From a virus: a stretch of DNA of 64,000 nt. Position 1 is the stretch's first letter. Each line of letters opens with the position of its first letter. The position numbers and the translations under genes were made by a program. Under the pieces are notes generated by a model. It was not told where the DNA came from, ran no database searches, and worked only from the letters and a program-made list of their open reading frames with translations. Of the stretch, positions 6,460-36,605 are shown piece after piece. The DNA lies in the IMG/VR virus record IMGVR_UViG_3300027842_000093, positions 53,491 to 117,490 of that record; one strand, written 5' to 3'.

Positions 6460-7632
6460 ATGGCAAAATGGATTGACCAGTTGTTCAGTTTGAACAAAGA
6501 AGCATCCACGGATGCCCAACAGGAATTTACGAAGAAAGTAAAAGCTTCTGGATGGGTTGATGGAGTGATGGGAATTGACGAACCAGCTTTAGTTAAAGAA
6601 GCTGACCAGAAGATAGAAGCCGAGCTTGCTGTTCGTGATGAAATTACGAAGGAAGCGGCTTATGAACCATTTCAGACAACTGAAGAAACTCTTAAGCATG
6701 ACTACCGCAGAGACGTTTCTATCCTCAGTGACTTTACGCTTGCTTCAATGATTGCTGAAATGCGCGGCCATGCTAAGCAGGATTTTCCTGAGAACGCTAC
6801 CGAATATTTTGAAGCCGCAAAGAAAGACGTTAAATCTGACCGTAAAGCAGTTGAAAAGGAACTCTTGGAAGGTACTGGAATGTCAGCACAACTTGATACA
6901 TTTAAAGCTTTTGCTGACTACAAGAAAGATGAAACTCCTAAACAAGCTACGGAGAAAGAGCTTTACAAGCCGCAGCTAAAAGATGTCAACGATGACCTTT
7001 CCAAAGGTGGAAAGGTTGACGCTTACGCCGAGACTGATGAACAACATGCGAAAACTATGTTGGGTGTTGGCCGCGAAGAGTCTGAAAGAACAGATGTAAC
7101 CGCGCAGCCTGGGGAAGTTCATAAAAATGCCGCTTTGGTTCGTGATCCAGACACCGAGCTTCATATTGGTACGATTGTTCGTTTAGCGCGAACCATAATG
7201 ACAAAAGAAGGCTTTCTACTTCCAGAAGGTTCTAGTTGGGAAGTGACTGAATTGGACGGATACCATTACACAATTAGCGCCAATGGCAAGAGCCACACAA
7301 TCAGTGGACACGACAGCCCAAAGTTCAATAAGCTTGCATCACAGAAAGAAGCTGGATCTCCTCCATGTGCAAAATGTGGAAACAGCAAATACGAACATCC
7401 CACAGATGATGGGCATTGTTCACAATACGTTCCTCCCACATCTGAGGAGCCTAAAAAGGCTTCACAAGAGATTGAGAACCGAGCAACCAAGGAGCAGATT
7501 TTTATTAAAATTGCAGAAATTAAATCTCCGTGGGCTGTAGTAGAAAAAGACGGACAAGAAGTAATTGCCAGGATTTCAGACGAACAAGTTTCCAAAGAAT
7601 CAGTAGAGGAAAAAGAGAATTTAAATAAGTAA
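6460..7632 (+). CDS. Modular virion-associated protein with K-x-A linkers
   Basis: 390 aa with AAGGAG 7 bases before the ATG. The N-terminal 200 residues are mostly helical. About residues 235-290 form a β-rich SH3-like module (IGTIVRLARTIM...YHYTISANGKSHTI). CAKCGNSKYEHP...HCSQYV around 303-322 is a zinc-knuckle like those at 1.3-1.9 kb. LNKEAS, ITKEAA, VHKNAA, QKEAG and PKKAS separate the blocks and match the linker seen in the other long proteins here. A late structural or internal head protein is likely by position, but the family is not recognised. Confidence 0.7.
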   Translation: MAKWIDQLFSLNKEASTDAQQEFTKKVKASGWVDGVMGIDEPALVKEADQKIEAELAVRDEITKEAAYEPFQTTEETLKHDYRRDVSILSDFTLASMIAEMRGHAKQDFPENATEYFEAAKKDVKSDRKAVEKELLEGTGMSAQLDTFKAFADYKKDETPKQATEKELYKPQLKDVNDDLSKGGKVDAYAETDEQHAKTMLGVGREESERTDVTAQPGEVHKNAALVRDPDTELHIGTIVRLARTIMTKEGFLLPEGSSWEVTELDGYHYTISANGKSHTISGHDSPKFNKLASQKEAGSPPCAKCGNSKYEHPTDDGHCSQYVPPTSEEPKKASQEIENRATKEQIFIKIAEIKSPWAVVEKDGQEVIARISDEQVSKESVEEKENLNK

Positions 7633-7647
7633 TAGAGGTCGTCAGCC

Positions 7648-7830: not shown

Positions 7831-7843
7831 CGAGGACACCACT

Positions 7844-10800
7844 ATGCTAGAAAAATTCGCAGGATACAAAACCCAGATTCGTGTACTTGAGAAAAAACTC
7901 AAGGAGATGGACCATTCTAAACTTTCACCAGCTAAAGTTAAAGAGGTGACGGAAGCTATCCAAAATCTCAAGAGTCTTGTCAAAGAGAAAGAAGATAAGA
8001 GAATTGAGCGCAAAAAGAAGAAAGAAGAAGCTGCTGCATCTAAACCCGTCGAAACTCCCAAAGTGGAAGCTGTTGCACAACCAGCCGAAGTTGTCAAGGA
8101 ATCTTCCCCAGCACCCACCGAAGTAACCAAAGAATCTACCGTCGAGAAATTTGCAGTTGATAGTAAAGTGGAACCCATTCGTGGTACTCCTGGAAGTTGG
8201 GGTACTGTTATCCGCGAAGCTGGAGTTAATGGTGATCCTTTAATTTACGTTAAGTGGAATGAAGGACATTTGAAAACCGCCCATGGCGATTACGGTGCGT
8301 ATTATCCTTCCGATTTGCGTCTCAAAGTGGAAGCAAAGTCTCCAACCGATTATGTTCCCCGCGAACAGGTGTACAACCTCGAAGCTGATTACAAAGGTAA
8401 ACTTTCAGCGATGATTAAGGATTTGGAAGAGGAAATTAAAACGGCTTATGATAAAGGTGAGGCAGTTTGGGCCCATCGTTTAGAACAGAAATTGTCTGAT
8501 GCAAAGAAAGCCCTTGAAGAAAAATCTGAGAAAGAAGCTGCTGGTGTCCACGAGGGCTGGGATGTTATTCTTAACGGTAAAGTTATAAATAAAGTTTTTT
8601 ATGTTCCAGGCGTATCGGCTGATGAAGTTAAAAGAGGTTTGGTTGAGCATGATGGATTTGACCCAGGAATTACAGTACGCAAAGAAAAACGCGCAGAAGA
8701 TGAAAATGGAAGTGGTGGAACCAATAAACTTAAAGTGATTGATTTAACGCCAGCGCATGATAAAGACCCACAGGAGAAAGCCACAGGCTATGGTGGAGAT
8801 CGTTCTATGGGAGCTTTGGTAGCACCTAACAGCGATGAGAATTCTTTGCCTTTAGAATCTTCTTTGGATAAAGATGCGAAGCACACTTTGAAGATTAAAA
8901 GCCTTGACGATGCTATGGCAGATTGTTCAGAAGGTGACTGGCATTTTAGCGGTACCGGAGCCAGAACAAAAGAAGAAATTGAAGAACAATTTAAAAAGCA
9001 TGTTCACGCCTCCCTCAATAAAAATTCCATAAATATTACAGTAGCTGAAAAGCTTTTCGTTGTTAATCCTTTAGCCAAGACAGCAGAGAATGAATACGTT
9101 TACGATGTATCTTTGTCCAATGGCGATAAGTTTTGTAAAATTACCTCCGAAGCCGAAATGGGTCAGGAGCATCTTTCTTATGCCATTGAGAAAGCTATTT
9201 TGAATCACAAAGAAGCATCAAACAAGTGTGCAATCTGCAATATGGAATTTAAATCGTGGGAAGAATATGACGCACATAAAAAAGAAAAACACGGCCCCAA
9301 AATGGCCAAGCTTGTAAGCAACCTCGCCTTCTTGAAGAAAGGCTCGTTTGTCTCTATTTTAAATGTTGATAAAACAAAGAAACAAGTTAAGTTTGCATCA
9401 TTAGATGGAACTCTTCGAGGTTGGGCACCAATACAGAAGTTTGCAGCATTTGCCGCTCCAGAAACCAATCTCGTTCCACATGAAAATCATCAAGATGAAG
9501 TGTTGGCTGAAAGTGGGCATGAGCTTCTAGTATCCTGTCCGGCCAACAGCACAAACGTTATTTGGAGAGCGGTTGAAGCTCCTCCGGCCACACCAGAAAG
9601 TTTGAATGATTTAGAAAGTAAGAAAATAGTTCCACACACGAAAGAATGTAATGAAGCAAATGACAGACATGTTGGGCCAACTGAAATTTGTATTTGTGAT
9701 AGTAAGAAAGAAGCAGCCAAAGATTGTCCAGACTGTCATGGAAACTTTGTAGGGAAAGAAGATGAGAAATGCCCTACATGTGGAAGGTTTGCTGTAGAAG
9801 CACATTGTGGAATGCCTCATGGAGAGAAAAAAGAAGCTCGTGGATGCGATCAATGCAATGCAGCTATGATTAACGGTGTGTTTTGTCATGAAACTGGTTG
9901 TCCCAATAAACGCAAAGAACGTGAGCAGGAAGATATGGAGATGGAAAGCTCTTTAAATAAAGATTCCCACATTCGCCACGAAGATGGGAAATGGGTTATT
10001 TACAGTCACGATTACAAAAAGAAGCTTGGAACTTATGACACTGAAGAAGAAGCTAAAAAGCGTTTGGGACAAATTGAATATTTTAAGCATCAAGGTTCAT
10101 TGCATCCATTATCCAAGAAAGAGGCTGCTGAAAAACTTAAACGTTGTGATTGCGGAAATTTAGTTTACCCAAATCATAAAGAACGATATGGGCATGAGTA
10201 TATTACCCCAACAGAATCCAAGAAAGAAGCTGGTGCAATGGATACAAAATGTGAAGAATGTGGTGAACCTTTGGGTCCTGAAGCATTCCTTTCCAAATGG
10301 CCAGTTTGTGGTAAATGCACAAAGAAACGCCATGAGAAAGCAGTAGGAAAGAGAGCAGACCAGAATATTTCTCTAGAGCAACAGATACAAGGGTTTAAAG
10401 ATCGCATGAGCGCAGTGACTGAAAGACTTTCAAATCCTCCAGTTAAAACAGCCGCTGAAACTTCAGAGCAAGCTCAAGAAGGTGAGAAGGTTATCGCCAC
10501 TCCAGAGCTTATTGAATCCATCGAGCGTGGAATTGACCTGCTCGAACAAAGGGTTGGAGAGGAAATTGCTCCAGAACAACAAACTAAATTAGAAGAGATG
10601 GAAAATCTTCTCTGGTCTGTTGAAGACTCTTTAGGACTTTCTCATCCATTACCTGAACACGAGAGGGTTGAACCAGAACATGCAACCGAAGTTGAAAAGC
10701 GCGAAGACGTTGAGAAAGAATCTGACATGTCCAACGTGCCTCCCCCCACCCCCGCGCCCCAGGGCTTTAGATATGCTTGGGAACCTATTAATAAAGAATG

Positions 10801-10855
10801 GATAATGGTAGCTGACCCTAACGCAACTGGCACAGGAACAGGTGGAACGTACTAA
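7844..10855 (+). CDS. Giant modular protein with multiple zinc ribbons (1003 aa)
   Basis: The N-terminus is a coiled coil (1-65). A Pro/Ala/Val linker leads to an SH3-like barrel (about 107-165). Further on are a C2H2-type finger (CAICNMEFKSWEEYDAHKKEKH, about 463-484), a Cys4 ribbon (CPDCHG...CPTCGR, about 628-648), CDQCNAAMINGVFCHETGC (about 666-684), and a compact module (KWVIYSHDYKKKLGTYDTEE, about 713-740) that I know as a frequent add-on in phage head proteins. Two more ribbons follow, then a coiled coil and a Pro-rich end. The modules are joined by KEAA, KEAS, KEAR, KEAG and KTAA linkers. No enzyme motif is seen. Its place among late genes suggests a scaffold, an internal virion protein or a processed polyprotein. 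Confidence 0.75.
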   Translation: MLEKFAGYKTQIRVLEKKLKEMDHSKLSPAKVKEVTEAIQNLKSLVKEKEDKRIERKKKKEEAAASKPVETPKVEAVAQPAEVVKESSPAPTEVTKESTVEKFAVDSKVEPIRGTPGSWGTVIREAGVNGDPLIYVKWNEGHLKTAHGDYGAYYPSDLRLKVEAKSPTDYVPREQVYNLEADYKGKLSAMIKDLEEEIKTAYDKGEAVWAHRLEQKLSDAKKALEEKSEKEAAGVHEGWDVILNGKVINKVFYVPGVSADEVKRGLVEHDGFDPGITVRKEKRAEDENGSGGTNKLKVIDLTPAHDKDPQEKATGYGGDRSMGALVAPNSDENSLPLESSLDKDAKHTLKIKSLDDAMADCSEGDWHFSGTGARTKEEIEEQFKKHVHASLNKNSINITVAEKLFVVNPLAKTAENEYVYDVSLSNGDKFCKITSEAEMGQEHLSYAIEKAILNHKEASNKCAICNMEFKSWEEYDAHKKEKHGPKMAKLVSNLAFLKKGSFVSILNVDKTKKQVKFASLDGTLRGWAPIQKFAAFAAPETNLVPHENHQDEVLAESGHELLVSCPANSTNVIWRAVEAPPATPESLNDLESKKIVPHTKECNEANDRHVGPTEICICDSKKEAAKDCPDCHGNFVGKEDEKCPTCGRFAVEAHCGMPHGEKKEARGCDQCNAAMINGVFCHETGCPNKRKEREQEDMEMESSLNKDSHIRHEDGKWVIYSHDYKKKLGTYDTEEEAKKRLGQIEYFKHQGSLHPLSKKEAAEKLKRCDCGNLVYPNHKERYGHEYITPTESKKEAGAMDTKCEECGEPLGPEAFLSKWPVCGKCTKKRHEKAVGKRADQNISLEQQIQGFKDRMSAVTERLSNPPVKTAAETSEQAQEGEKVIATPELIESIERGIDLLEQRVGEEIAPEQQTKLEEMENLLWSVEDSLGLSHPLPEHERVEPEHATEVEKREDVEKESDMSNVPPPTPAPQGFRYAWEPINKEWIMVADPNATGTGTGGTY

Positions 10856-10867
10856 AAAGAGCTTGAT

Positions 10868-13800
10868 ATGAAAAAGATGCCCACCGCAGTTTTGCCAGCG
10901 GATTCTGAGTATGTCTACGTACCTGATACGGACAGTTGGATTGTTCAGAAAAAGTCAGGTAATAAAGTACTGTCTAAAAAAGAAGCTTCTTTAATTATCC
11001 TCGCCCGTTTAGAAGAGATACATTCTAACTTGTTGAAGCAAGCTATTCAGCAGCAGGATGTTGTAGATTTTTATCTCCTTTCCCTCCTACCTCCAGACTA
11101 CCTACAAGGTGATGAAATAGGCACCGAACATTACGACGCCCTTTCTATTTTTAAATCGATTATTATGTCCCTCCGCGATGAATACATTGAGCGCGGTATG
11201 GATGAGTTAAAGGATGAAGCTAAAACTACAAGATGGGTTAAAGCTATTCCTGAAGAAGACATGCCAGAGGATTTGAAACCGTATTATAAATATCACGACG
11301 AACCATTTAGAAGTCGTCATGAATTTTATGAGGACGATGATAGATCATGGACTTATACGTGTTATAATTGTCAGAAAGGTTTGGAAGAAGGTGACGCTTA
11401 TATTTTTAATGACGAAACATATTGTGAAGATTGTGAAGGCGAAGCTATCAATGACGCAATAAAAGACAATGTTGCTTATTGCACAACTCACAATGTGTTT
11501 GTAACGGACGACGAGGGAATAAAGGAGTACATGTACGATTATCCAGTATCTGATGCGGAAAGTCATCCGGTAGGTCCAGAACATCAATTGGTTCGTTACA
11601 AAGAAGGAGTTCCAATTTGGGATGAGATTCAAGAAAATGCAAAGAAACAATTACAATTAGAATTTGCGAAACGAAGAAAGAAGAGAGAACAAAAACAACC
11701 CAAACAATTAAATCTTCCCCAACCCACTTCCATGGCGTTCCCCGAAGCTTCTTTAAAGCAAGCTGGTGAAGGCGGTAGCAGCGGTCAAATTCACAGTGAA
11801 GATGGATGGTGGGAAGCACCACATAATTTTGACGATTATTCTTCCACAGATTTCTACAAGATTTTTGCATTAGCCCCTTGGAAATCCATGTATGGTGGTC
11901 CTTTGTGGGCTGAAGTAGCCAAAACCATTACTCAGATGGAGGGCACAACCGATTGGCAAAAGCTTATGGTTCTTATCGACCATTTTCATGACTTGGGCCA
12001 CAATACAGGTAAGCTCTTAGACAAGTTTTCAGAGTGGCATAAATGGTTTAAAGAATTCTTAGACGAGAAAGCAAAAAAGAATTCTCTTCGATATCTTCTT
12101 CAAAGAGCTTCTGGTCCAGTTAAAAACCTCGTTACGGATTATTTACGAACATATGGAAAAACCTGGGTGGAGGAAGAAGAGGAACGTGAGTCTGCTGAAA
12201 GTAAATTGGAAGTTGGCGATGAAGCTATTTTTAATGGCCAAGTAGTTACGATTTTAAAAATATTTGAACCATCACATGTAGCTGATGTTCAATACACCGA
12301 TGGTAAAAAAGACAGAGTTGTGATTGAAGATTTGAAAGAAATAGACATGCCAGCAGCCGTTTCAAGTCAGAAAGTACAATTACGAAAACTATCTAAAAAG
12401 CACGAAGAAGAAGCCATTTGTCCATCTTGTGGGGAATGGAAACCAACTGATTTCTCTCCAGAACAATTGAAAGAGATGGACTGGGAATGTCTAGATTGTT
12501 CAACCAAACGAGCCCTTAATCCACAGGACCTTCCCGAGAATAGAGGACAGAAAGAAATTACAACTTTTGATCCTGAATATCAGTGGCTCCTTAAACTCAT
12601 AAACGTTGTAACGAAGGCAGGAGTTCCTGCCCACGAAATAAAAGCCTTGAGTACGCAACATCCATTTGTTACAATTGATGACGCAGGTGATTTGGCCGCA
12701 CAGATTTGGACATTGGCAACTGAAAGGTACCACATTCCACGAGAATGGTTGATGAAGAAATTGCCTGAAAAAAAAGCTAGTTTAAAAAAACAAGCAGAGA
12801 TTATAGAGATTGGACTTACAAGCACCTCCCCACTTTTTCCTATTTTTATAAATCCAACTCCCAATGAAGCTTTGGGGTTATTGGCACGATCTCAAACAGG
12901 CGAACTAAGATATTTATTTGGTGAGGATGGAAATACTTATCTGTGGGATGGGTATCATGGCGTTCATTTTGATGTGATAAATGAATTACATGCGTTGGGT
13001 TTTGATGTAGATGCTCACACACCACAAGGAGAAGTTGTAGGTGAAAAAGCAGTTAGACAAATTTTTGGCACTTTAAATACAAAAGCTTACGAAGGCGGAT
13101 ATCCAACCGAGGAAGACGCTACTTATATGGGTGGCGGTCCACAGGGTACCGTTGCTTATGAACCTGCTAAGCATGATTCTCAAACAGGTAGACGTGAAAG
13201 GGATGATGGAGAACCAATAGTTATTTGTCCCAAATGCAAATCAAATAAAGTAGCAAAAGAAGGCGAACAAGTTAAGTGTCAAGCTTGCGGAACTAATTTT
13301 ATTCCAGAACCAGATAGAGGTTCAGACGACCCAACAGTAAACGATTATAGCCAGAACTATTTTTTCGGACCTAGGGATCTCGGAACGGTGCCTAATAAGC
13401 AGCCAGGAGATTCCTTTTGGCAACCTTGGGGAACTGAGAACTCCGACGGAGTTTCTTCCAATGTTATGATGAGTAGTTTCAAATCCTTTATGCGTAAGCA
13501 ATCCAATTTAAACAAAGTAGCTCACTGCGGCCCTTGTTCAGTCCTTAAGATGGAAGCTCTTCACATTCTCATCGATCTTTATTACAAAGATAATGATTTA
13601 TTCCCCGAAGAAGTTATAGAAGAACTTTCTGTTGCTACAACCGAGCTTGAGGTTGATAATTTTAACGACATTTTAGAAAGTGTTATTGAAGAATATTTAG
13701 AAGAGAAAGCTGAAGAGGTCGGAGATAAACTTCCAAAGCTTAAGAACCTTTTGATTGCTCTTAAAGATATTGCGCCTAAGCTTGGGAATGAAATTGAGAT

Positions 13801-15307
13801 TGTGGATAAGCAAGCAATGCTCAAACAAGCCTTTGGCACCGTTAAAAACGTTTTGATTATCTGTTCTGGTAATACATGCCGCAGCCCAATGGCCGAGAAT
13901 ATTTTACGTTCCATCCGTCCAGACTTGAATGTTGTTTCCAGAGGTCTTTACGTTTCCAAGGGAGGACCTATGAGCCCTCCCGCAGAAGTCGCTTTGAAAG
14001 AGAAAGGCATTCCCTATCAGCCTCACACATCCAAGCAAGTAGACGCTAATGATGTAAACGCCGCTGACTTAATCCTTACAATGGAACAATGGCAGAAAGA
14101 AGAAGTTGTAAAACAATTTCCACAAGCTAAGAGTAAAACGTTCCTGCTCGGTAGCAAAGAGATTCAAGACCCAGTTGGTGGGAAGGCAGAAGACTACCAA
14201 AGAATTAGGGATGAGATTGCCCAGGAGTTGGGCAAGATGGGCTCTTTGGATAAACAGGCAAAAGAAGTTCCAACCCCCTCAAACAAAGAAGAATATCCTA
14301 AAATTTCAAAACCTAAATCAGGGTATGTAGATAATGGCATAGGTTATACATGCGGTCGTTGCGAATATTTTAATCCCGAAAGAGAAAAATGTAAAAAAGT
14401 AGAAGGAACTATTAAATCGTTTGGTTGTTGTAATTTTTGGGATGGTGAAGGTAAATTCAAAGAAAAAAATAAAACAGCAGAAAAAGCATTAGAGACGGAT
14501 AAAAGAGCGTTAACAAAAGAAGAAGCAGTTTATGTTCAATATCCAAATGTTGATTATCGTTGTGATGAGTGTGCATTTTTTAATGCAGAAGCTAAAACGT
14601 GTACCAAAGTAGACGGAGAAATCTCACCAACAGCTTCTTGTAATTTTTGGCAACCAATAAAGAATAAACAAGCTAATTTAATAAAACAAGCCAACCCTCC
14701 CAGTAGATTCTGGATTGCCCCAGATGGGAAAGAGTTTGAAGTATTCTCAGCAGGGCACGGCAAATGGATACAACAAAATCTAAAAACATTAAAACAATAT
14801 GGCATTAATCCGTCTGAAGATTTAGATAAAATGAATAAAGAAATGTATGATCGGGGATGGTCCAGAATATCTAATGAACCAGCAGGATCTGGATTTCAAA
14901 TTCAAGTGGCAGATGTAAATAAAGTTCCTTCCTACCTAGACGATTTTATAGCAAAACATTTCAAGAAAGGCGAGACAATTTTAGTTGGAGATATAGATGG
15001 AGAAGGAATAGAAATAACTGATCCCTTTCCTACTCTTCAAAAAGCTATAAATAAAAAGCCAAAATTTTGGGCATCTCAAAAGCAAGCTTCTCTTCTCGAT
15101 GAAGTATTGGACCAGACAACCCAAGATGCAATTGCAAGTGAGTACGGTCCAGCAATGCTAATCGCGTTAAGGTTCTACAACGACGGTATAAGATACGGGC
15201 AAAATCCTCAGCGTTCCATGGCTTACGCACTTGATGAAATTAAGAAGATGGGAAGACCAATAAATCAAAAAGATTTCTTGGAAGTGTTGGATACTTATTT
15301 TCAGTAA
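10868..15307 (+). CDS. Giant modular protein containing a tyrosine-phosphatase domain (1479 aa)
   Basis: A four-Cys site (YTCYNC...YCEDC) lies near 160-185 and an SH3-like patch near 450-495. A ribbon (CPSCGEW...CLDC) is near 518-540 and another (CPKCKS...CQACG) near 790-812. A WDGY module (about 655-735) recurs in the protein at 17436. A complete low-molecular-weight protein-tyrosine-phosphatase domain spans about 988-1128: ICSGNTCRSP (C-x5-R-S loop, about 997-1006) and DPVGG acid loop. Two tandem Cys4 repeats (CGRCEYF...CCNFW; CDECAFF...CNFW) sit near 1160-1260. A W-x-IAPDGKEF module (about 1280-1400) also recurs at 17436. LKQA, DKQA, KKQA and IKQA motifs flank these modules; MLKQA and SLDKQA bracket the phosphatase. 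Likely a cargo or virion polyprotein. Confidence 0.8.
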   Translation: MKKMPTAVLPADSEYVYVPDTDSWIVQKKSGNKVLSKKEASLIILARLEEIHSNLLKQAIQQQDVVDFYLLSLLPPDYLQGDEIGTEHYDALSIFKSIIMSLRDEYIERGMDELKDEAKTTRWVKAIPEEDMPEDLKPYYKYHDEPFRSRHEFYEDDDRSWTYTCYNCQKGLEEGDAYIFNDETYCEDCEGEAINDAIKDNVAYCTTHNVFVTDDEGIKEYMYDYPVSDAESHPVGPEHQLVRYKEGVPIWDEIQENAKKQLQLEFAKRRKKREQKQPKQLNLPQPTSMAFPEASLKQAGEGGSSGQIHSEDGWWEAPHNFDDYSSTDFYKIFALAPWKSMYGGPLWAEVAKTITQMEGTTDWQKLMVLIDHFHDLGHNTGKLLDKFSEWHKWFKEFLDEKAKKNSLRYLLQRASGPVKNLVTDYLRTYGKTWVEEEEERESAESKLEVGDEAIFNGQVVTILKIFEPSHVADVQYTDGKKDRVVIEDLKEIDMPAAVSSQKVQLRKLSKKHEEEAICPSCGEWKPTDFSPEQLKEMDWECLDCSTKRALNPQDLPENRGQKEITTFDPEYQWLLKLINVVTKAGVPAHEIKALSTQHPFVTIDDAGDLAAQIWTLATERYHIPREWLMKKLPEKKASLKKQAEIIEIGLTSTSPLFPIFINPTPNEALGLLARSQTGELRYLFGEDGNTYLWDGYHGVHFDVINELHALGFDVDAHTPQGEVVGEKAVRQIFGTLNTKAYEGGYPTEEDATYMGGGPQGTVAYEPAKHDSQTGRRERDDGEPIVICPKCKSNKVAKEGEQVKCQACGTNFIPEPDRGSDDPTVNDYSQNYFFGPRDLGTVPNKQPGDSFWQPWGTENSDGVSSNVMMSSFKSFMRKQSNLNKVAHCGPCSVLKMEALHILIDLYYKDNDLFPEEVIEELSVATTELEVDNFNDILESVIEEYLEEKAEEVGDKLPKLKNLLIALKDIAPKLGNEIEIVDKQAMLKQAFGTVKNVLIICSGNTCRSPMAENILRSIRPDLNVVSRGLYVSKGGPMSPPAEVALKEKGIPYQPHTSKQVDANDVNAADLILTMEQWQKEEVVKQFPQAKSKTFLLGSKEIQDPVGGKAEDYQRIRDEIAQELGKMGSLDKQAKEVPTPSNKEEYPKISKPKSGYVDNGIGYTCGRCEYFNPEREKCKKVEGTIKSFGCCNFWDGEGKFKEKNKTAEKALETDKRALTKEEAVYVQYPNVDYRCDECAFFNAEAKTCTKVDGEISPTASCNFWQPIKNKQANLIKQANPPSRFWIAPDGKEFEVFSAGHGKWIQQNLKTLKQYGINPSEDLDKMNKEMYDRGWSRISNEPAGSGFQIQVADVNKVPSYLDDFIAKHFKKGETILVGDIDGEGIEITDPFPTLQKAINKKPKFWASQKQASLLDEVLDQTTQDAIASEYGPAMLIALRFYNDGIRYGQNPQRSMAYALDEIKKMGRPINQKDFLEVLDTYFQ

Positions 15308-15348: not shown

Positions 15349-16062
15349 ATGGATATAGCAAAGGTTATTGATTACACTCTTCTCAAACCCCAGGAACCTC
15401 TAGGCAGTTATACAGAGCTAGTCCGTAACGCAATTAAATATCAGGTTGGTACAGTTTGTGTCAATTCCTTTCATGTTCCTCTAGTTTCTAGTTTGCTTCA
15501 TTCCTACATCCACACAGATACAAATTTGAATATAAATGTAGCTTCAACTATCGGCTTTCCATTTGGCACATCAAGTATTGAATCAAAAGTGGCAGAAATG
15601 CAGCAAGCGTTCAATGATGGGGCCGTTGAGTTCGATGTCGTAATCAATTTGAGTGCCGTAAAAACCCACGACTGGTTGAGGGTGAAACATGAATTAGAAG
15701 CTCTACGATCAGCAGTTCCAGATTTTATAAATAAATTTCATCCCACCCTTAAGATAATTTTAGAAGTGGGAATGCTTACAGATGACGAAATCAAAAAAGC
15801 ATCTGAATTATGCATTGAAACTAATTGCGACTTTTTGAAAACGAGCACAGGAATCAATGTAGAATTGGCACCAGCCAAGACAGCCGAGTATGTCAGAATG
15901 CTCAAAGATTTCTCAAAGGGTTCTAAAATTAAGGTGAAGGCCAGCGGATATATAAAAACGCTTAGTGATTTCAACATGATGTTGGATGCAGGAGCAGATA
16001 GGATTGGAGTATCAAGAACAGTGCAAATTTTAGAGGAGTTTTTAAAAGGAGAGAAACGATGA
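15349..16062 (+). CDS. deoC: Deoxyribose-phosphate aldolase
   Basis: 237 aa, normal length for the family. DeoC reversibly cleaves 2-deoxyribose 5-phosphate to glyceraldehyde 3-phosphate and acetaldehyde in deoxynucleoside catabolism, in the cytoplasm. Catalytic residues are visible: Asp96 in EFDVVIN, Schiff-base Lys164 in DFLKTSTG, and Lys197 in KVKASGYI. The TIM-barrel phosphate-binding GVSRT is also present (about 220-224). It has its own strong promoter and overlaps the next gene (ATGA). In a phage it may redirect sugar from degraded host DNA to carbon metabolism or protect dNTP pools. The role is inferred; the family assignment is firm. Confidence 0.95.
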   Translation: MDIAKVIDYTLLKPQEPLGSYTELVRNAIKYQVGTVCVNSFHVPLVSSLLHSYIHTDTNLNINVASTIGFPFGTSSIESKVAEMQQAFNDGAVEFDVVINLSAVKTHDWLRVKHELEALRSAVPDFINKFHPTLKIILEVGMLTDDEIKKASELCIETNCDFLKTSTGINVELAPAKTAEYVRMLKDFSKGSKIKVKASGYIKTLSDFNMMLDAGADRIGVSRTVQILEEFLKGEKR

Positions 16063-27400: not shown

Positions 27401-27970
27401 TTAGAAAGAGCCCCCGCTAAAACAGAGCGTGAGAAAGCTCAACCCGCTACCGAAGAACAAGCTAAGTTGGTTCAGGAAATGCAGAGTTCTTTAAGCAGCC
27501 TTGAATCTATCAAATCAATGGTAGCTCAAGCTAAAGCCAAATTAAATGAAGAAATTAAAAATATCGAACAGTCAGGTGGAAGAGTTAACCTTGAAGCAGG
27601 ACTTAAAGAAAAAATGGAACGTCTTGCCAAGCTCGTCGAAGCTACAGAAAACCAGATGATTAATGCTGGAGATACCGTAGTTCGTTTAGTGCAAGAAACC
27701 AAAGAGAAACCTTTTAAACCCTCAGATGCTTGGAAGGTACAGAAGCTTGTTGAGAAATTCGCAGGTGCCCAGGAGTATCTAGATAAGGCAATTGCTGGTG
27801 CTCAGAGTTTGGCCACAACCGAACAAGTTAGGGACTTGGTATTCTTTCCTCGCAAAGTAAGTAAACTTCACAAATCGGCTGGATTTGTAGAAACCCTTGA
27901 CGCTGTATATAACGATGTTCTTGAAGCACTAAAACTTATTATTGGAAGTGACGAACCAGCGGTGGCGTAA
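24437..27970 (+). CDS. Giant modular late protein with zinc ribbons and C-terminal coiled coil (1177 aa)
   Basis: AGGAG is 8 bases before the ATG. Visible parts include a module around 138-190 (YKGWAIHKRPEGDWMAEHDV), a similar one around 410-450 (RGRNWKVTYYDKNDKVISSHTI), an SH3-like barrel around 518-570, and two zinc sites (CKNPDCKRK...WCEKH and CPNCGKE...CWNCG, about 595-650). An α/β region follows, then a C-terminal coiled coil (about 1000-1150). LEQKSAS, SQKKVAQ, YEKKAAK, LKNAS, IEKKAD, LKTAAD and HKSAG lie between blocks. It stands directly upstream of the packaging genes. No enzyme motif; possibly an internal virion protein cleaved during maturation. Confidence 0.7.
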   Translation: MKNLLASWFRNLTAFDEGPVEQSFSIVDPTAAQADGLNTVILSVNPSDENSPTIVSLRFDPSGVKLFEKKYQNDAEAQTEMAAMATDLNEASSLSKAGKTEEAKKLAEALFEKYKRHSEPVVNEQPTSTMTQASQDSLQYKGWAIHKRPEGDWMAEHDVISFRADSVDTLKAKIDNATRKAIGRKLKAGITMQNLFFDTVDEAMEFQEKTKALQGPEGSEEGKPLWEQMGAGEEQVAPSNETEPEEDTELAPPSLSFDRIEKDKAKTDKDIGKRIKEQVKTEVESALEQKSASVFGPDQEELVEALRKNGRNWDEIKKIFTKELSYNEDDTTVFLDSIRQKEEGGPAEGLPMAPKPPEDLVSPETHDKLVKEIEDKSEPKPEPLPLADEIARADNAEIRKVADVTDSSRGRNWKVTYYDKNDKVISSHTIKDRTEAEASKEAQGDMPSGCEDWSMMPVKNKKSSQEKVALNPLQEPPAVGQAPGQPLAAPVEENPTFDSPVPPSQDSNPEPEFLEAPQAGDRVYVMGDYETGEDGYEGTMVSDYTSKGDEYAVISKDNGENAEVALHRVVKASQKKVAQVYYEKVASEIYCKNPDCKRKATVRRPDGNWCEKHAPTYEKKAAKTCPNCGKEIWDVSTVDQRLNKCWNCGIRFDNPEEESIESEADLEVEGKGNEDVIRMFISDSFPKDKMPVWGTNNLKITKYPNGWALVNYQTPILYRGNDNPDVIVFNAHKYSVTTSKIQTQIRRMFTGQSVKETDESGIYAAIDQSNLAVPEPEFTTELKNASLAGQDRIVTMVSQIMGREKNLNQETVADLGYIKMYAEDELKTTYGTDLQSLHESALKLQAELEHEGEIAIYFHKEGIEKKADIYDDSAFEANGWCRVWIQELAITSDAKYPEILKIADENARITALKEFARELAHEALRDADSAASKVGVQSWFESLQPSNHDRIDWVSLANPTQENVESSLKTAADSVPEVSKEVPTQFKNLERAPAKTEREKAQPATEEQAKLVQEMQSSLSSLESIKSMVAQAKAKLNEEIKNIEQSGGRVNLEAGLKEKMERLAKLVEATENQMINAGDTVVRLVQETKEKPFKPSDAWKVQKLVEKFAGAQEYLDKAIAGAQSLATTEQVRDLVFFPRKVSKLHKSAGFVETLDAVYNDVLEALKLIIGSDEPAVA

Positions 27971-30361: not shown

Positions 30362-32083
30362 ATGGGACGACCCAAGGGCTCAAAAAATATTACTAAAAGC
30401 GCTGAACAAGTAAAAGCACCCGTATCTATTGTTACAGGTGAAGGAATTACTGGCTCCACCACTTCTTTTGGTGTAGATGCAGGATTGATGAAAATTGGTT
30501 CTTTGAATAAGCAAGCCAATTATGGTGTATCACAAACTTCTTCATTTTTCTACAGTCCAGAATTAACCACAGAATCATGGCTCCTTCCTAAGTCCCGCCA
30601 AGAAACTTGCCGCTGGGCTCGTGTATTCTACAATTTAAATCCTATTGTGCATAGCGTTATTAACATGCATTCGAAGTATCCTTTTTCCAAATTTGAGCTT
30701 GTTTGTGGAGACCCAACGGTAAAACAATTTTACGAGCAAATGTCATTTAATAAAAATTTCAATTTGTACGATTTTATGTTACAAGCTTCCCTTTCCTACG
30801 AAAAATTTGGTGAGGCCCTTTGCTTTGGTACGATGGAGAAAAAGGGTGACAAGGTTCAATGGACCAAGTTCGTTCTTCTTGAGCCAGAACTCATTGATGT
30901 AAAGTCGGATATGATGAGCGGAAAGCAAACCTTTGAGATGGTTCCAACATCTGAACTCAAACAACTTGTTACTTCCACTCGTCCTGAAGATTCTGAGGCT
31001 CAAAAGCAACTGGAAGAGTGGTCCCCAGAAATTGTAAAAGCCATTAAGGAAAATAGAAACATTCGTCTTTCAGATGAAAATGTTTCTATTATTGCAAATC
31101 TTACTGATCCTTCAGCCACTCGTGGGACAAGTCGTATTCAGTGTCTATTTAAAGATTTGATTCTAAATGACTTCATTCGTTTGGCGCAGATGGCGTATGC
31201 TCAACGTTATGTATTTCCAGTTGAAATGTGGTCCATTGGAGATATTGCAAACAACATCATTCCAAGCACGACCGATTTACAGAACTGGAAACAGCTTATC
31301 AATCAGTCTATTCAACAGCCTCCATTTTCACTTGTTACACCTCCATATGTTAAGTATGAAGCTTTGAGTACAGCAGGAAAAACATTCCCGGTAAACACAG
31401 AATGGTATGAGTATACGCTCAGCCAATTGATGATTGGGTTAGGTGTAAACAAGAATTTGATGACTGGTGATGGACCTTCATTCAGTGCAGGACTTAAAGG
31501 AATGTCCCTTCACCGTTTAATGATGGAATATAAAGCGGTTAGAGACAAATTTGAAGATTGGATTATTCATAAATTCTTTGAACCAATCGCAGAAAAGAAC
31601 CAATTTTATACAGTTGAAAATGGAATGAAGAAGCTTATTCTTCCAGAACTTTCTTGGAAGAAATCCCTCGACATTGAAGATGCTGAAGCAGAACGCGAAA
31701 TGTTCGTAAAAATGTGGGAAGCCGGAGTTATCAGCACGGAAACTCTCTTCACGAAATTCCCCACTCTTGACTTCAAGACGGAACAGAAGAAATTGGAACT
31801 TGAGCGTGGAACTATTTTTGATAAGGGTGATGGTGCTAGGTTGCCTGAGAAAATTCACAAGTCAGTTGTTAAGCCAGGAGGCGATACTGGATTTGGTGGA
31901 AAAGGCGGTGGCGGAGCAGCCCCAGGCGCTGTGAAACCAATAAAGCCAGTAAAACCCACCAAACCTGGAGAAGTTCCTGAAGGTGGAGAGCCAGCAGCCC
32001 CAGGCGCACCTGAAGGTGCTGCCCCAGCAGGTGGTGAAGCTCCAGCAGCAGCCGTTACACCAGCAACACCGACAGTGGAGTAA
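30362..32083 (+). CDS. Portal protein
   Basis: 573 aa. The position right after terminase and the pattern SRQETCRWARVFYNLNPIVHSVINMHSKYPF (about 80-110) match portal proteins, which form the dodecameric DNA gate. Helical stem and wing segments follow (LMIGLGVNKNLMTGDGPSF about 360). The C-terminus is a long Gly/Pro/Ala-rich tail (about 510-573). Near the N-terminus there is a GRPKGSKN stretch that looks like an AT-hook, and SLNKQANYG (about 47) matches the K-x-A linker, so the first 50 residues may be removed on maturation. That last point is inference. Confidence 0.85.
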   Translation: MGRPKGSKNITKSAEQVKAPVSIVTGEGITGSTTSFGVDAGLMKIGSLNKQANYGVSQTSSFFYSPELTTESWLLPKSRQETCRWARVFYNLNPIVHSVINMHSKYPFSKFELVCGDPTVKQFYEQMSFNKNFNLYDFMLQASLSYEKFGEALCFGTMEKKGDKVQWTKFVLLEPELIDVKSDMMSGKQTFEMVPTSELKQLVTSTRPEDSEAQKQLEEWSPEIVKAIKENRNIRLSDENVSIIANLTDPSATRGTSRIQCLFKDLILNDFIRLAQMAYAQRYVFPVEMWSIGDIANNIIPSTTDLQNWKQLINQSIQQPPFSLVTPPYVKYEALSTAGKTFPVNTEWYEYTLSQLMIGLGVNKNLMTGDGPSFSAGLKGMSLHRLMMEYKAVRDKFEDWIIHKFFEPIAEKNQFYTVENGMKKLILPELSWKKSLDIEDAEAEREMFVKMWEAGVISTETLFTKFPTLDFKTEQKKLELERGTIFDKGDGARLPEKIHKSVVKPGGDTGFGGKGGGGAAPGAVKPIKPVKPTKPGEVPEGGEPAAPGAPEGAAPAGGEAPAAAVTPATPTVE

Positions 32084-32684: not shown

Positions 32685-32687
32685 AAA

Positions 32688-33023
32688 ATGCAAGAAAGCA
32701 ACGAGTGGTCAGCAAACTTAGCTGAGAAGCACAGCATTTCGAAAATTGCTGTTGCAACAGAAGTGAGTTTGCCAACCTTCCAAAGATTATTGGGAGATGG
32801 ATACACAATTGCTATTTGGAAAACTATTAATCCAGTGCCCTGTATGCGTTGTCAGGATTTAGAAGCACAACAATTTAACTTTGCTGATTTTGTAAACAGT
32901 ACGACGCACGATGCCCCGATCTTCTCCAAATCTCATCCGAACTGCCGTTGTGTCATTATTTGTACCGGAGATGGGCTACCTACTCTTCAAATCGATTTTA
33001 CAGGAAATCCTTCAGAGGCTTAA
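32688..33023 (+). CDS. MuF-like minor head protein (C-terminal domain)
   Basis: 111 aa. The motif C-M-R-C-Q-D...FNFADF...P-I-F-S-K-S-H-P-N-C-R-C (about 46-87) is the zinc-binding end of Mu gpF-type head morphogenesis proteins, which sit near the portal. The usual N-terminal helical domain of several hundred residues is missing, so this is a short form or a split gene. Its position between portal and protease fits. It could help place portal or be ejected with DNA. Confidence 0.75.
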   Translation: MQESNEWSANLAEKHSISKIAVATEVSLPTFQRLLGDGYTIAIWKTINPVPCMRCQDLEAQQFNFADFVNSTTHDAPIFSKSHPNCRCVIICTGDGLPTLQIDFTGNPSEA

Positions 33024-33026
33024 TTT

Positions 33027-36000
33027 ATGGCATTGACAAAACGTGGAACCATTTTAAGGATTACTAAGACTGCTGCATCTGCAACGGAGCTTCTTATTGA
33101 CCGCCCTCTAATAGAAGAGACAAAAGTGGTTGAGGGAAAAAATCCTGAGTTTCTATACTTTGTTGCCAAAGCAATTGCAGCAGGGGATGAAGGTCCGATT
33201 GATAAAAATGGTTCTAGAGAGCCTAACTACAACGGAAATGCCGACTACTTCCCTAAGAAAGAAATTGAAGGCGCATATCAAACATTTATTGGCAAAGGTA
33301 TTTACCTCGACCACAACGCATCCAGCGTTATGTATTCTGTTGGTAAGATTATCGATGCTTTTCCCACGGTAGACCCAGATAATAAAGAGTGGAGCATTTC
33401 TTGTCTCGCCAAGATTGATAGAAAGCTCCATCCAGAAATTGCTCGTAAAGTAGAGACGGGTGAACTAAACACCGTTTCTATGGGTTGTTCTTGCGGTGAA
33501 TCAAAGTGTTCTGTTTGTGGAACAGTCCTTAGAACTGACGATGATCCAAAATGCGCTCACCTTTCTCCTGGGAAATTGATGCATGATTTTGAAGCAGAGA
33601 TTGACCTTCCAGAGTTTGGAATTCATAAGGGGCAGACCGTAAAGAGTTTTGCTATTAACTCTGAAATTAATTTTAATGAGCTTTCGCTTGTCGGCGTTCC
33701 TGCATGGCCACGAGCATTTGTCACAACAATTTTAAGTAATCTTAAGAATACAATTAGTAAACAAGCTTCTCTTACGAAAGAGGAGCAACTCGATTTAGTA
33801 GCGCAGTTTGAAAAGCTTGTGGACACTTTAGATGCGAACACAAAAGAACAGGTCAAAGCCGAATTTTGCGGTTGCCCAATTGTTAAGGAGAACAACATGT
33901 CCGATACCCCCCAGAAACAATCGAACGACGAAGTAACAGATTTATTGAAGAAAGTGAGTGCTTATGAGATGGAGAAGCTTGAGAATTATATCCAACATAA
34001 GACACGCAAAGCAGAAGCGACCGCTGCTGCTGATACAAAGACCAATGATTCCAATTGGATGAACGGCATCCTTGAGAAAGCAAAAAATACGGCTGCTGGG
34101 AAGGTATTTGCAAGAACGATTCAGCGATTGGCTGAAGAGGAAAAAGTAACAAAAAAGGCAGATACCGATCCTGATAAATGTGCAATTTGTGAAAAAAAGC
34201 TTGGCGACAATGATGATTATATATGTGCCAAATGCAAAGTTGAAGATGAAAAGAAAGATAAAAAATCATCCCTCACAGCTACATTTACAGTAAACAAAGC
34301 AGAACCAATGAAATCTTCTTGGACTCTCCTAGACGGTAATGACAAAGTTATTTTAGATGCTTCACTCCATGAGATTTGGGGAGACCAGTTTGAAGCAAAT
34401 CAAGATTTTGCAATCAGTGAAGAATATGGCAGAGCAATTGCCGCACGATTTTTAGATCCTAAACTTGGAGGCGTTGAGAAACTTGCCGACCTTTGGGATG
34501 TTTCTTATAAATTAAATAAAGAGGCTATTATGGACAAAACATCCGAACACGGCGAATTTTTCAAAGCTAAAGATTTCTTTGTACCTGGAAGTGATTCTTC
34601 TAATAAATACACTCCAGAGGAGATTAAACATATGCAAGAAAAAGAACACACAGAAGCGAAGGGTAAAAAGGTTGAGGCTGGGCATATTGACGAAAAATTT
34701 GATATTACGGAAGGTAAGGGCAAACTCTTTGATGCAAAGAATTTCTTTGAGCCCGGATCAGATTCCTCAAATAAGTGGAATGATAAACGAGTTAAAATTG
34801 AATACAATATTAAGTTCCCTGGGCAAGAGGAAGGTCAAAAAGGTCCAGCCGCTCCCAAGAGCAAAGATGTAAAGACAGAATACAATATTCCAGGTAAGGC
34901 TCCAGAGGCTGGTCAAAAAGGCCCTGCGGCCCCTAAGCACGAAGATGTTAAAACAACCTATGATTTTAAAAAGCCAGAAGGCGAGTTCGTTAATACAAAT
35001 AAGAAAACCAAACTTGACGAAGAACATGCTAAGTCGGAAGAGAAAGTCAAAACTGGTTACAAAGGCGATTTGATGTATGATGAAGAGAAAAAGTCCGAGA
35101 AAAAGGCTGCTAAAACTGTAGGGGACGCTCCCGAAGGCGCAGTGGCAGAAAGCCAATATCCCAAGAAAGATGCCAAAACTTCTGGTGATGAACCAGATTC
35201 TTCTTATAATAAAACAGCAAAAACCGTTGGCGATGCTCCTGAAGGTTCTGTTGAAGAGAGCCAATATCCAAAAGCCTCCGAACCAAATAAAGATCCCGAA
35301 GCTTCAGTTGCTGAAAACAATATGCCAAAGGGCACACCAAATCTAACAAAAACACCTGATAGTTCAGTTCAGGAAAAGATGCCAGCACCCGCTAAATCGG
35401 ATAAAGATCCTGAAACATCCGTAAAGGATACAGAATTTAAAAAGCATCCAGACCTCACAAGTAAGCCTGAAACTTCTTCTAAGGAAGACCAGTATCCTAC
35501 TCCAGCCAATCCAGATAAGGACCCAGATTCTTCAGTACAAAAAGGTTCTAATCTTAAAGTTGCCAAAACCCCGGAAGGTTGGGAACATGCTGTTCGTGAA
35601 ATGAAGAAAGAAAAGGATATTGATAATCCTTGGGCAGTGGCGAACTGGATGAAAAATAAAGGTTATACGCCTCATAAGAAATCTGAGCTTGATTTGAAAG
35701 CCGATTCTGAGATGTGTGAGAAATGTTCCATGCCGCTACATGAATGTGCTTGCATGGCCGCTCAGGAAGACATGGGCCCAGCAATGGATGCTCCCAAGCC
35801 GGAAGTTGGCTCAGCTTTTGACAAGGTTGAAGACAAACTTACTATTGGTGATGGGTACGATGCTTCTAAGGACAAAGAAACCAAAGAGATAGTTATTTCC
35901 AAAGATGGCAAGGAAATGAAGCGTCTTCCAGATGGTTTTGGTGCTGATGTTGCTTCTGTTACAAGTCTTCTAAAAGCCGTTCTTGGTCTTCCTGCAACGG

Positions 36001-36605
36001 AAGAGAAAAAAGATGAAAAACCAGGAGAAACCCTTTCCCCCGTAGATGAAGTTGTAGAGAAAGTTGAAGTTCATCCTGAAATGTCTTCTCCTTCCGAAAC
36101 GCCTTCCCTCAAAGCCTCTGCTCTTGAAGTTGAGCTTGAAAAGAAAGCTGCCGAACTCAAGGTTAAGGAAGAGGAAATTGGTAAGAAAGAAGCTATTCTC
36201 ATTGCCAAAGAAGCTGAAATTAAGGCTGAGAGGTTCCAAAAGGCTGTTGCTTCTCGCACAGATCGTTGCCGCAGAGTGATTGAAGCCATGCTTGAGAAAA
36301 ATGTTTTGTCAATGGATGACACGGTATTGAAAGAGAAATTGCAAGAAGGTACATATCTCTTGGATGCCCGTAAAGCTGCTCTCGATCACGCCATTTCAGC
36401 AAAGCTTAAGGAGCTTATGGCTTCCGATGATGTAGCACTTGCAGCCATTGAGAAAACAGTCAATGATATCAAGCTTCCAGAAGCTGAAGTTTCTAAGAAA
36501 GCCAATCGCGTACCTTTTGTTAAATGGGATGCAATTCCAACAGAAGAAGATGAAATAAAAGGCATCTTTGATCAAATGGGCCGTAGGTCGCATTGGAATC
36601 AGTAA
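33027..36605 (+). CDS. Prohead protease fused to a giant scaffold-like tail (1192 aa)
   Basis: The N-terminal 250 residues resemble phage head-maturation proteases: NGNADYFPKKEIEGAYQTFIG, YLDHNAS with His96, VGKIIDA, and NTVSMGCSC with Ser151, plus a small zinc-like loop (CSCGESKCSVCG...CAHL). The rest is highly charged: a ribbon (CAICEKK...CAKC), two FFxPGSDSSNK repeats, tandem 16-25-residue repeats (GDAPEG, ESQYPK, DPETSV; about 690-845), a TPEGWEHAVREMK...NPWAVANWMKNKGY module (about 850-885) common in phage head proteins, and a coiled coil (about 1030-1100). ISKQAS, VTKKAD, LNKEA, SEKKAA and VSKKAN punctuate it. It is likely a protease-scaffold fusion that degrades itself after capsid assembly. 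Confidence 0.85.
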   Translation: MALTKRGTILRITKTAASATELLIDRPLIEETKVVEGKNPEFLYFVAKAIAAGDEGPIDKNGSREPNYNGNADYFPKKEIEGAYQTFIGKGIYLDHNASSVMYSVGKIIDAFPTVDPDNKEWSISCLAKIDRKLHPEIARKVETGELNTVSMGCSCGESKCSVCGTVLRTDDDPKCAHLSPGKLMHDFEAEIDLPEFGIHKGQTVKSFAINSEINFNELSLVGVPAWPRAFVTTILSNLKNTISKQASLTKEEQLDLVAQFEKLVDTLDANTKEQVKAEFCGCPIVKENNMSDTPQKQSNDEVTDLLKKVSAYEMEKLENYIQHKTRKAEATAAADTKTNDSNWMNGILEKAKNTAAGKVFARTIQRLAEEEKVTKKADTDPDKCAICEKKLGDNDDYICAKCKVEDEKKDKKSSLTATFTVNKAEPMKSSWTLLDGNDKVILDASLHEIWGDQFEANQDFAISEEYGRAIAARFLDPKLGGVEKLADLWDVSYKLNKEAIMDKTSEHGEFFKAKDFFVPGSDSSNKYTPEEIKHMQEKEHTEAKGKKVEAGHIDEKFDITEGKGKLFDAKNFFEPGSDSSNKWNDKRVKIEYNIKFPGQEEGQKGPAAPKSKDVKTEYNIPGKAPEAGQKGPAAPKHEDVKTTYDFKKPEGEFVNTNKKTKLDEEHAKSEEKVKTGYKGDLMYDEEKKSEKKAAKTVGDAPEGAVAESQYPKKDAKTSGDEPDSSYNKTAKTVGDAPEGSVEESQYPKASEPNKDPEASVAENNMPKGTPNLTKTPDSSVQEKMPAPAKSDKDPETSVKDTEFKKHPDLTSKPETSSKEDQYPTPANPDKDPDSSVQKGSNLKVAKTPEGWEHAVREMKKEKDIDNPWAVANWMKNKGYTPHKKSELDLKADSEMCEKCSMPLHECACMAAQEDMGPAMDAPKPEVGSAFDKVEDKLTIGDGYDASKDKETKEIVISKDGKEMKRLPDGFGADVASVTSLLKAVLGLPATEEKKDEKPGETLSPVDEVVEKVEVHPEMSSPSETPSLKASALEVELEKKAAELKVKEEEIGKKEAILIAKEAEIKAERFQKAVASRTDRCRRVIEAMLEKNVLSMDDTVLKEKLQEGTYLLDARKAALDHAISAKLKELMASDDVALAAIEKTVNDIKLPEAEVSKKANRVPFVKWDAIPTEEDEIKGIFDQMGRRSHWNQ

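Follow-up and report, generated by a model that had tools for sequence, protein, structure and literature searches.

The stretch of DNA analysed here (the window, 64,000 nucleotides) spans positions 53491-117490 of the virus record IMGVR_UViG_3300027842_000093, which is 117,490 bases long, and carries seven large genes, with products of 387-1611 residues, located upstream of and among its terminase-like, portal and capsid genes. These giant proteins contain a recurrent short motif, S-L-x-K-x-A. We consider it probable that this motif is the cleavage site of the prohead protease encoded at 33027, that the giants are polyproteins cut in trans, likely in the prohead, and that their modules become head cargo. 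Computation supports the core of the motif, K-x-A, as a constrained signal common to the giants, the protease, the portal, a small MuF-like protein and, less regularly, the major capsid protein.

In the proposed mechanism, folded modules (nucleotidyltransferase-like, HAD, 2H, tyrosine-phosphatase-like, Cys-rich and a repeated module termed W) would be joined by short linkers, many of them carrying S-L-x-K-x-A followed by Ser or Ala. A serine protease of the gp21 fold, derived from the gene at 33027, would recognise an aliphatic residue at P5, Lys at P3 and Ala (or Gly) at P1. It would release itself at residues 16 and 247 and would also trim the portal and the MuF-like protein, as well as the N-terminus of the capsid protein in some lineages. 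The giants would be its substrates in trans, with the cutting most probably taking place inside the prohead. Single modules would thereby become internal head proteins, to be delivered with the DNA. The initial annotation had proposed self-processed cargo polyproteins, a description that fits the protease's own polypeptide, whereas the remaining giants would need to be cut in trans. The giants, their recognised modules and the adjacent sites are the following:

6460..7632, + strand: 390-residue modular protein with four [LIVM].K.A matches, the first of which, SLNKEA (residues 10-15), lies at the N-terminus
7844..10855, + strand: 1003-residue modular protein with PHROG 6353 (residues 237-279), PHROG 3684 (residues 708-766) and Cys-rich parts that look zinc-ribbon-like by eye
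10868..15307, + strand: 1479-residue polyprotein with seven motif matches
13802..13831, + strand: tandem sites VDKQA and MLKQA (residues 979-988), immediately upstream of the phosphatase module
13832..14245, + strand: low-molecular-weight phosphatase module (residues 989-1126; LMWPc at residues 995-1122, E 1.7e-25)
14246..14260, + strand: site LDKQA (residues 1127-1131), immediately downstream of the phosphatase module
14708..15055, + strand: W module (residues 1281-1396), with NLIKQA just before it
17436..22271, + strand: 1611-residue polyprotein with nucleotidyltransferase-like, HAD phosphatase, W, 2H phosphoesterase and PHROG 17808 modules
17478..18056, + strand: nucleotidyltransferase-like module (residues 15-207; phrog_36119)
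18303..18668, + strand: HAD phosphatase module (residues 290-411; phrog_1238, E 4e-24)
18651..18665, + strand: site IEKSA (residues 406-410), between the HAD and W modules
18681..19025, + strand: W module (residues 416-530; W profile)
19308..19322, + strand: site LVKQA (residues 625-629), upstream of the 2H module
19467..19796, + strand: 2H phosphoesterase module, LigT/Acb1-like (residues 678-787; PF13563, E 7.8e-10)
19848..19862, + strand: site VKKNA (residues 805-809), downstream of the 2H module
21660..21971, + strand: PHROG 17808 module (residues 1409-1512), followed by site VAKLA (residues 1514-1518)
22382..23545, + strand: 387-residue protein with the three sites LKKQA, VEKKA and IKKQA
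24437..27970, + strand: 1177-residue modular protein with five motif matches; family scans gave no annotated enzyme
33027..36605, + strand: 1192-residue fusion of the prohead protease with a long tail of unknown function; eight motif matches

All seven open reading frames (ORFs, called by longest-ORF rules and not by a gene finder) exist at the starts given in the initial annotation (6460, 7844, 10868, 17436, 22382, 24437 and 33027), which had noticed the recurrent K-x-A linker, and every linker string that it quoted is found in the sequences. Across the seven proteins [LIV]-x-K-x-A occurs 36 times against 10.0 expected, and none of 2000 whole-protein shuffles reaches this number. When residues are shuffled locally, within blocks of 10, 20 or 30, the expectation becomes 11.9, 11.1 and 10.7 (0/1000 reaching 36 in each case); as it barely changes, Lys/Ala-rich patches do not explain the excess. 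The composition bias of such linkers, which had been offered as an alternative from the start, is thus rejected on the basis of the local shuffles together with register controls, in which KA is found 59 times against 56.8 expected and A.K 46 times against 56.6. The signal is specific in its spacing; with E or R in place of Lys the counts are 11 vs 10.4 ([LIV].E.A) and 5 vs 3.0 ([LIV].R.A), but a mild excess is seen for K..A (74 vs 56.8) and, with ratios of 1.7-1.8, for [LIV]K.A, [LIV].K..A, [LIV].K.G and [LIV].K.S. Two control sets were taken from the same record. Among 104 plus-strand ORFs of at least 60 residues to the left of the window (early genes), [LIV].K.A is found 18 times against 17.5 expected, and among 30 plus-strand ORFs from 39044 onward (tail genes) three times against 3.6, all three in the single ORF 52705. 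The motif had been described as rare in tail and fibre genes; it indeed shows no excess there, but it stands at chance level and is not depleted.

The same signal is present in relatives of the window virus (pooled head-region sets omit ORFs under 250-300 residues; the near-identical G001 and two genomes lacking a protease match, G008 and G010, were left out of the counts). Across 84 head-region ORFs of at least 250 residues, from the window and eight relatives, K.A is found at 732 places against 450 expected. Around the 699 distinct ones the enriched residues are S at P6, L or I at P5, E or N at P4, E, T or Q at P2, S or A at P1' and L at P2'. In the pattern [LIV].X.A[SDEANQ], Lys at X gives 155 matches against 43.6 expected, the seven other residues listed being unremarkable. 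With 300 shuffles per genome, seven of the nine sets exceed the shuffle maximum by at least five matches and an eighth, L091, has 12 matches against a maximum of 11; G004, a short set with eight matches against 3.4 expected, stays below its maximum of 11. The motif is broader than K-x-A and reads S-[LI]-x-K-[EQT]-A followed by [SA]-L; some homologous sites have R at P3 and G at P1, and V or I occasionally replaces the P3 Lys.

Constraint acts on the residues that define the motif. Between the window and the relative G005, in columns with 30-90% local identity, the motif Lys is kept at 27/27 alignable sites against 277/362 other lysines (Fisher p 0.0013) and the motif Ala at 24/27 against 193/288 other alanines (p 0.017), the x positions being kept at 17/27.

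The distribution of the motif along the polypeptides is also far from random. The initial annotation had placed the linkers between modules, and in agreement with this three of the 99 [LIVM].K.A matches in proteins with recognised domains fall inside such a domain, against 15.2 expected by length (the domain list was assembled by hand from family and profile scans, and matches within 8 residues of a domain edge were scored as outside). Some homologous modules keep the site at a similar distance although their surroundings differ. A site precedes the 2H match at a near-constant offset of 49, 46, 49 and 45 residues in the window, G003, G006 and G007, lies 5 residues upstream of LMWPc in both copies and, in the window and G003, is found 50 residues before and 13 after the protease match. 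In G005 and G015 the nearest strict site lies 266 and 310 residues from the 2H module, respectively, and alignments reveal the variant sites TKTA and EITA close by. In the alignments of both LMWPc copies, homology starts at the second residue after the site, the upstream parts being unrelated. K-x-A stands before the PHROG 17808 module in 7/8 cases (the window copy is the exception) and after it in 8/8. On the upstream side of the 2H module it is found in 5/8, with I-T-A in the other three, so that the Ala is kept, and on the downstream side in 5/8, with K-x-S/G in three. More generally, 77 of 486 local-homology starts between polyproteins fall within 8 residues of a site against 35.2 at random (maximum 53, n=1000), as do 80 of 552 ends against 39.6 (maximum 58), that is, homology breaks near sites at about twice the random rate. 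These computations support the view that the sites keep out of recognised domains and sit at module edges.

A repeated module of about 120 residues, W, provides a further series of homologous sites. A profile seeded with two window segments identifies 34 copies across window and relatives, with as many as 7 in one protein. Family scans of W list nothing except weak matches of its start to phrog_1615, of unknown function (G005 residues 410-442, E 1e-5; G006 residues 1237-1275, E 2.1e-6). Alignment of the 31 N-terminally complete copies on the conserved Trp shows Lys at Trp-9 combined with Ala at Trp-7 in 14/31, against 0.27 expected. The Ala is present in 19/31, the residues between it and the aromatic pair are variable, and in some copies V-T-A, I-V-A or I-T-A replaces K-x-A.

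Single-protein scans with the proteins at 17436 and 10868 recovered 2 and 1 loci, respectively, all near copies, and an alignment scan recovered 35. In tblastn searches against phage records these two proteins matched single modules at most, and the one at 24437 had no match. The 2H module matches Acb1 (PF23474) with E 9e-4, below the family cut-off. The structure model of the 17436 polyprotein is poor, with a mean predicted local distance difference test (pLDDT) of 51.9; in a Foldseek search with this low-confidence model, LigT-type 2H enzymes come out on top, and Acb1 and HAD phosphatases rank lower. In other viral contigs (L094, L095, L097, L100 and L111), free-standing ORFs of about 250 residues are related to the nucleotidyltransferase module, and in these K-x-A is not present.

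The candidate enzyme is organised as follows:

33060..33074, + strand: site ITKTA (residues 12-16), upstream of the protease domain
33075..33767, + strand: protease domain of the gp21 fold (residues 17-247), ending at site ISKQA (residues 243-247)

The initial annotation had taken the gene at 33027 for a protease, and its family profile (phrog_18299, 'head maturation protease', E 2.5e-15), its location between the portal and capsid genes and its fold all identify a prohead protease of the gp21 type. An AlphaFold2 model of the domain (pLDDT 79.9, predicted template modelling score 0.73) superposes on T4 gp21 (5jbl) with Z 13.4 and a root-mean-square deviation of 2.5 over 147 aligned residues (Foldseek E 4.3e-4); herpesvirus assemblins come next with Z 4.7-6.7, above unrelated rows at about 4-4.7, but the assemblin match is not decisive by itself. 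H96 and S151 are invariant in 22 protease rows and are presumably catalytic, and a C-x2-C...C-x-H cluster is present in the same rows. A sequence search of the PDB gave four matches, none of them a protease, and a Pfam S77 search of the record gave no match, an uninformative result since none was obtained in control genomes either.

Both ends of the protease domain carry the motif across relatives (here and in the portal, MuF-like and capsid N-terminus counts, rows cut by a contig end are omitted). Within residues 8-20, [LIVM].[KR].[AG] is present in 34/37 rows (20/23 distinct; the misses are L009, L025 and L048) and strict K.A in 24/37, against a background of 1.3% of 13-residue windows in tail proteins for the looser pattern. 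The variants comprise ITKTA, INKTA, ILKTA, IRKAG, ISKVG, IIRTG and IVRQG. In the 17-residue stretch at the domain end, [KR].[AG] is found in 36/38 rows and strict K.A in 25; in the window this site lies in a stretch with pLDDT below 50. Several closely spaced sites follow in the long tail. The count on residues 8-20 leaves out Lys5 and Gly7, invariant residues at the protease start that fit the loose motif (L-x-K-x-G, residues 3-7, window 33033-33047) and may represent either a second site or a part of the fold.

Glu-type motifs of known gp21-fold proteases were tried as the site signal and rejected, as they show no enrichment in the seven window proteins and a slight rise in relatives (A.E 1.14-fold, [SAG].E 1.07-fold); this lack of enrichment points to a different specificity of the window protease. 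The idea that P1 changes strictly in step in the two proteins, protease and portal, was likewise rejected. Both proteins have K/R-x-G in L042, L049, L040 and others, but the rule fails elsewhere, L029, L014 and L019 combining portal K-x-G with protease K-x-A, a mismatch now taken as P1 tolerance. The protease genes of some relatives contain long in-frame inserts (L054 2341-7044, L052 3082-8022, L038 5095-9345) that start at a Cys three residues past the invariant Ser (SMGC, continuing as FK.GT) and measure about 400 residues in two cases; Hint/intein profiles match in the L054 record.

The other candidate substrates of the head region, which like the protease lie downstream of a terminase-like ORF (TerL_ATPase match below cut-off, E 0.004), are the following:

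30362..32083, + strand: portal (phrog_16240), which carries ITKSA and LNKQA as N-terminal sites
32688..33023, + strand: small MuF-like protein (PF04233 match below cut-off, E 7e-4), which carries ISKIA as an N-terminal site
37377..38345, + strand: major capsid protein (phrog_2522), with N-terminal VTKTA

The portal SLNKQA and capsid VTKTA pointed out in the initial annotation are located at residues 47-52 and 5-9, respectively, and the portal has a second site, NITKSA, at residues 9-14. The loose motif is present in the first 20 residues of 13/17 portals and the strict motif in the first 70 residues of 13/17, while the MuF-like protein carries the strict motif in 22/24. Some relatives have longer portal genes (L073 11538-15524, of G015, as well as L040, L043, L048 and L009), and the extra parts of the G015 portal match intein, HNH and LAGLIDADG profiles. 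In the capsid, a further stretch, GLQKIA followed by QQM (residues 37-42, window 37485-37502), recurs with minor changes in most of the relatives shown, including those that lack the N-terminal capsid site, and may be either a true capsid cut or a conserved helix.

The signature extends to isolated phages. K.A was counted against 500 shuffles in head-region proteins, picked by annotation and gene place, of seven isolated relatives. It is the most over-represented residue pair, beyond all shuffles, in Bacillus phage G (40 vs 19.9-20.4) and Tunturi_5 (50 vs 26.9-27.6), and it also lies beyond all shuffles in Rhodococcus phage Finch (44 vs 23.4), where KTA is the top triple (17 vs 1.3). Gordonia phage Stormageddon has K.A at 32 vs 19.8 (maximum 37), its most over-represented pair and triple being R.A (53 vs 29.1) and RTA. 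The Mycobacterium phages are weak (I3, 35 vs 22.0, maximum 37; Myrna, 35 vs 21.4, maximum 35), and Rhodococcus phage E3 has no excess (15 vs 12.9). As a positive control, 16 head proteins of phiKZ, the prohead protease of which is gp175, contain the experimentally known S-x-E 50 times against 32.6 (2/500 shuffles), and 39 times against 19.7 in their first 260 residues (0/500), although S-x-E ranks just fifth among pairs in an unbiased list; [LIV].K.A is at chance (9 vs 8.3). The word stem 'cleav' is absent from the text of the Myrna capsid paper (PMC7150772), as are 'mass spectrometry' and 'structural proteins' from that of the Tunturi paper (PMC11924767).

Our literature search, which was of limited reach, turned up neither a K-x-A prohead site nor a phage head polyprotein, and one head protease serving many modules has, as far as that literature goes, not been described. 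The nearest known class is that of the polyvalent proteins, which the giants resemble. These combine several unrelated enzyme domains in one polypeptide and are known from conjugative elements as well as phages. Iyer et al. (2017, PMC5512222) predict packaging for them, plus autoproteolysis for members with peptidase domains, processing being suggested mainly via built-in metallopeptidases. The 17436 protein, with its nucleotidyltransferase-like, HAD, W, 2H and PHROG 17808 modules, falls in the polyvalent range of two to 15 domains, and the giants share the gene context of this class, lying among virion genes with portal, protease and capsid genes directly downstream. Both are multi-enzyme polypeptides encoded with virion genes. 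Of the domains typical of the class (zincin metallopeptidase, ART, ParB and Pol-beta nucleotidyltransferase), the window offers a nucleotidyltransferase-like module as a possible counterpart. The others are seen in the relative G007 alone, as sub-threshold matches to ART-PolyVal (29.0 bits, cut-off 31.2) and ParB (23.5, cut-off 26.3) and as a DUF6782 metallopeptidase (30.0, cut-off 27). Unlike in the polyvalent proteins, the window peptidase is encoded in a separate gene and many modules have a candidate site for it. The consulted portions of PMC5512222 describe no recurrent site, and state that assemblin-like peptidases are always C-terminal, whereas the window protease is N-terminal in its own protein.

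With T4 gp21, the phiKZ enzyme and SPN3US gp245 the window enzyme shares the fold, the invariant His and Ser and the gene place between portal and capsid, as well as predicted self-cleavage, action on several head proteins through a short motif and Ser among the preferred P1' residues (PMC5694885 and PMC10052503, each consulted in part). According to the same partial sources, however, the prohead proteases of T4, phiKZ, 201phi2-1 and SPN3US cut C-terminal to Glu (PMC5694885), and SPN3US processing mostly removes N-terminal propeptides (PMC5694885, PMC10052503). In contrast, the window protease has a predicted preference for Ala or Gly at P1 and Lys at P3, is followed by a tail of about 945 residues and has multi-module polyproteins as candidate substrates. 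Because known proteases of this fold cut after Glu, the predicted Lys P3/Ala P1 would be a new specificity for it. Herpesvirus assemblin, similar in fold, is likewise fused to a downstream tail and has Ala at P1 of its sites. It differs in serving scaffold release, and its [VLI].A[SA] pattern, found 15 times against 14.1 expected, shows no enrichment. T4 internal proteins carry a short leader (the capsid targeting sequence) that is cut by the prohead protease, the proteins being loaded and then injected, with one small protein per gene in T4 and many modules per gene here.

Several observations weigh against the motif being a cleavage site in cargo polyproteins. The gp21-fold proteases characterised to date cleave C-terminal to Glu. 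Of the 36 matches in the seven proteins, about 10 are probably chance, this being the number expected by shuffling. The protease's N-terminal site maps to a predicted beta strand (residues 3-16, pLDDT about 74) and not to a linker, and the polyprotein model, too poor by itself to place linkers, tests the linker idea weakly. Many recognised domains have no strict site nearby, and domain-to-site gaps above 100 residues are common. The strict motif is found in the first 20 residues of 3/17 portals and at 25/50 capsid N-termini ([LIVM].[KV].A at 36/50), which makes the capsid the weakest substrate. Among the isolated relatives K.A stays within the shuffle range in four of seven (I3, Myrna, E3 and Stormageddon), and in phiKZ plain K.A is itself slightly raised (45 vs 35.1, 19/500 shuffles).

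As regards the motif, the strongest competing account is a docking or hinge peptide that stays uncut, such as one binding scaffold or portal, and would load intact giants into the head. A binding peptide would show the same constraint and fixed spacing, and polyvalent proteins such as the N4 virion RNA polymerase are packaged unprocessed (PMC5512222, in the portion consulted). Nevertheless, the motif flanks modules on both sides and occurs at both protease-domain ends and near the portal and MuF-like N-termini, like self-processing and propeptide sites, and it favours S and A at P1', where SPN3US sites also favour S; we regard a docking peptide as quite unlikely. For function, the main rival is a processed scaffold: cleavage would occur, but the giants would be core fillers, chopped and mostly cleared instead of being delivered. 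The closely spaced sites in the protease gene's tail would suit such fillers, whereas several modules are recognisable enzyme folds with few internal matches and relatives of one of them are also free-standing genes, and we hold this account to be unlikely, if still a serious one.

The remaining alternatives concern the origin of the motif or the identity of the enzyme. That the sites are real but cut by another protease, such as a host enzyme or the trypsin-like protein encoded among the giants at 16778 (PF13365 E 2.4e-25), seems improbable. Trypsin-like enzymes do prefer Lys, but the cut would fall two residues past it, the 16778 protein is probably exported, as judged by eye from a lipoprotein-like signal sequence at its start, and it is the gp21-fold protein that bears sites at both ends of its protease domain. 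It is highly improbable that the motif merely accompanies amphipathic helices or linkers rich in Lys and Ala: the proteins are rich in K, E and A, and I and L are likewise raised two residues after [LIV].K (123 vs 75.5 and 127 vs 98.6), yet the local shuffles and the register, tail and early-gene controls contradict it, and K and A are constrained while the x positions are not. We give the least credence to the linkers being DNA recombination joints for module shuffling with no role in the protein. Polyprotein homology does tend to break near sites, but Lys and Ala codon use at the window sites is similar to background, so that the signal resides in the protein, and the motif is also found near the portal, MuF-like and protease N-termini, where shuffling was not seen.

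If the giants are indeed cleaved as proposed, polyvalent proteins would gain a processing rule readable from sequence, in which cut sites delimit modules, and many uncharacterised phage effectors could be parsed and expressed singly. The predicted new specificity, within a well-known protease fold, is testable in isolated phages with the same signature. Such processing would represent a phage counterpart to the polyprotein strategy of eukaryotic viruses. More speculatively, and with somewhat less than even confidence in the whole, a single gp21-fold protease of new Lys-P3/Ala-P1 specificity might cut many multi-module precursors of virion cargo into separately delivered proteins, including a 2H phosphoesterase that could disarm cyclic-nucleotide defence. 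W, bracketed by the same sites, might be a packaging tag that carries cargo into the prohead, and the presence of K/R-x-A in the head genes of Bacillus phage G, Tunturi_5, Finch and (as R-x-A) Stormageddon would suggest an old and widespread system.

Other genes are interspersed with the giants. The trypsin-like gene occupies window positions 16778-17428, and its product has PADLOC matches to the protease components of defence-system models, the best with E 7.4e-11. Two HNH-type endonuclease genes are found between giants, at 5757-6437 (PF01844 E 9e-4, below cut-off) and at 23552-24424, the latter recognised by eye with no Pfam match. A stand-alone aldolase of the DeoC/LacD family (15349-16062, PF01791 E 7.1e-10) lies between polyproteins, and ORFs similar to it in place and, by eye, in N-terminus are present in G006, G007 and G015.

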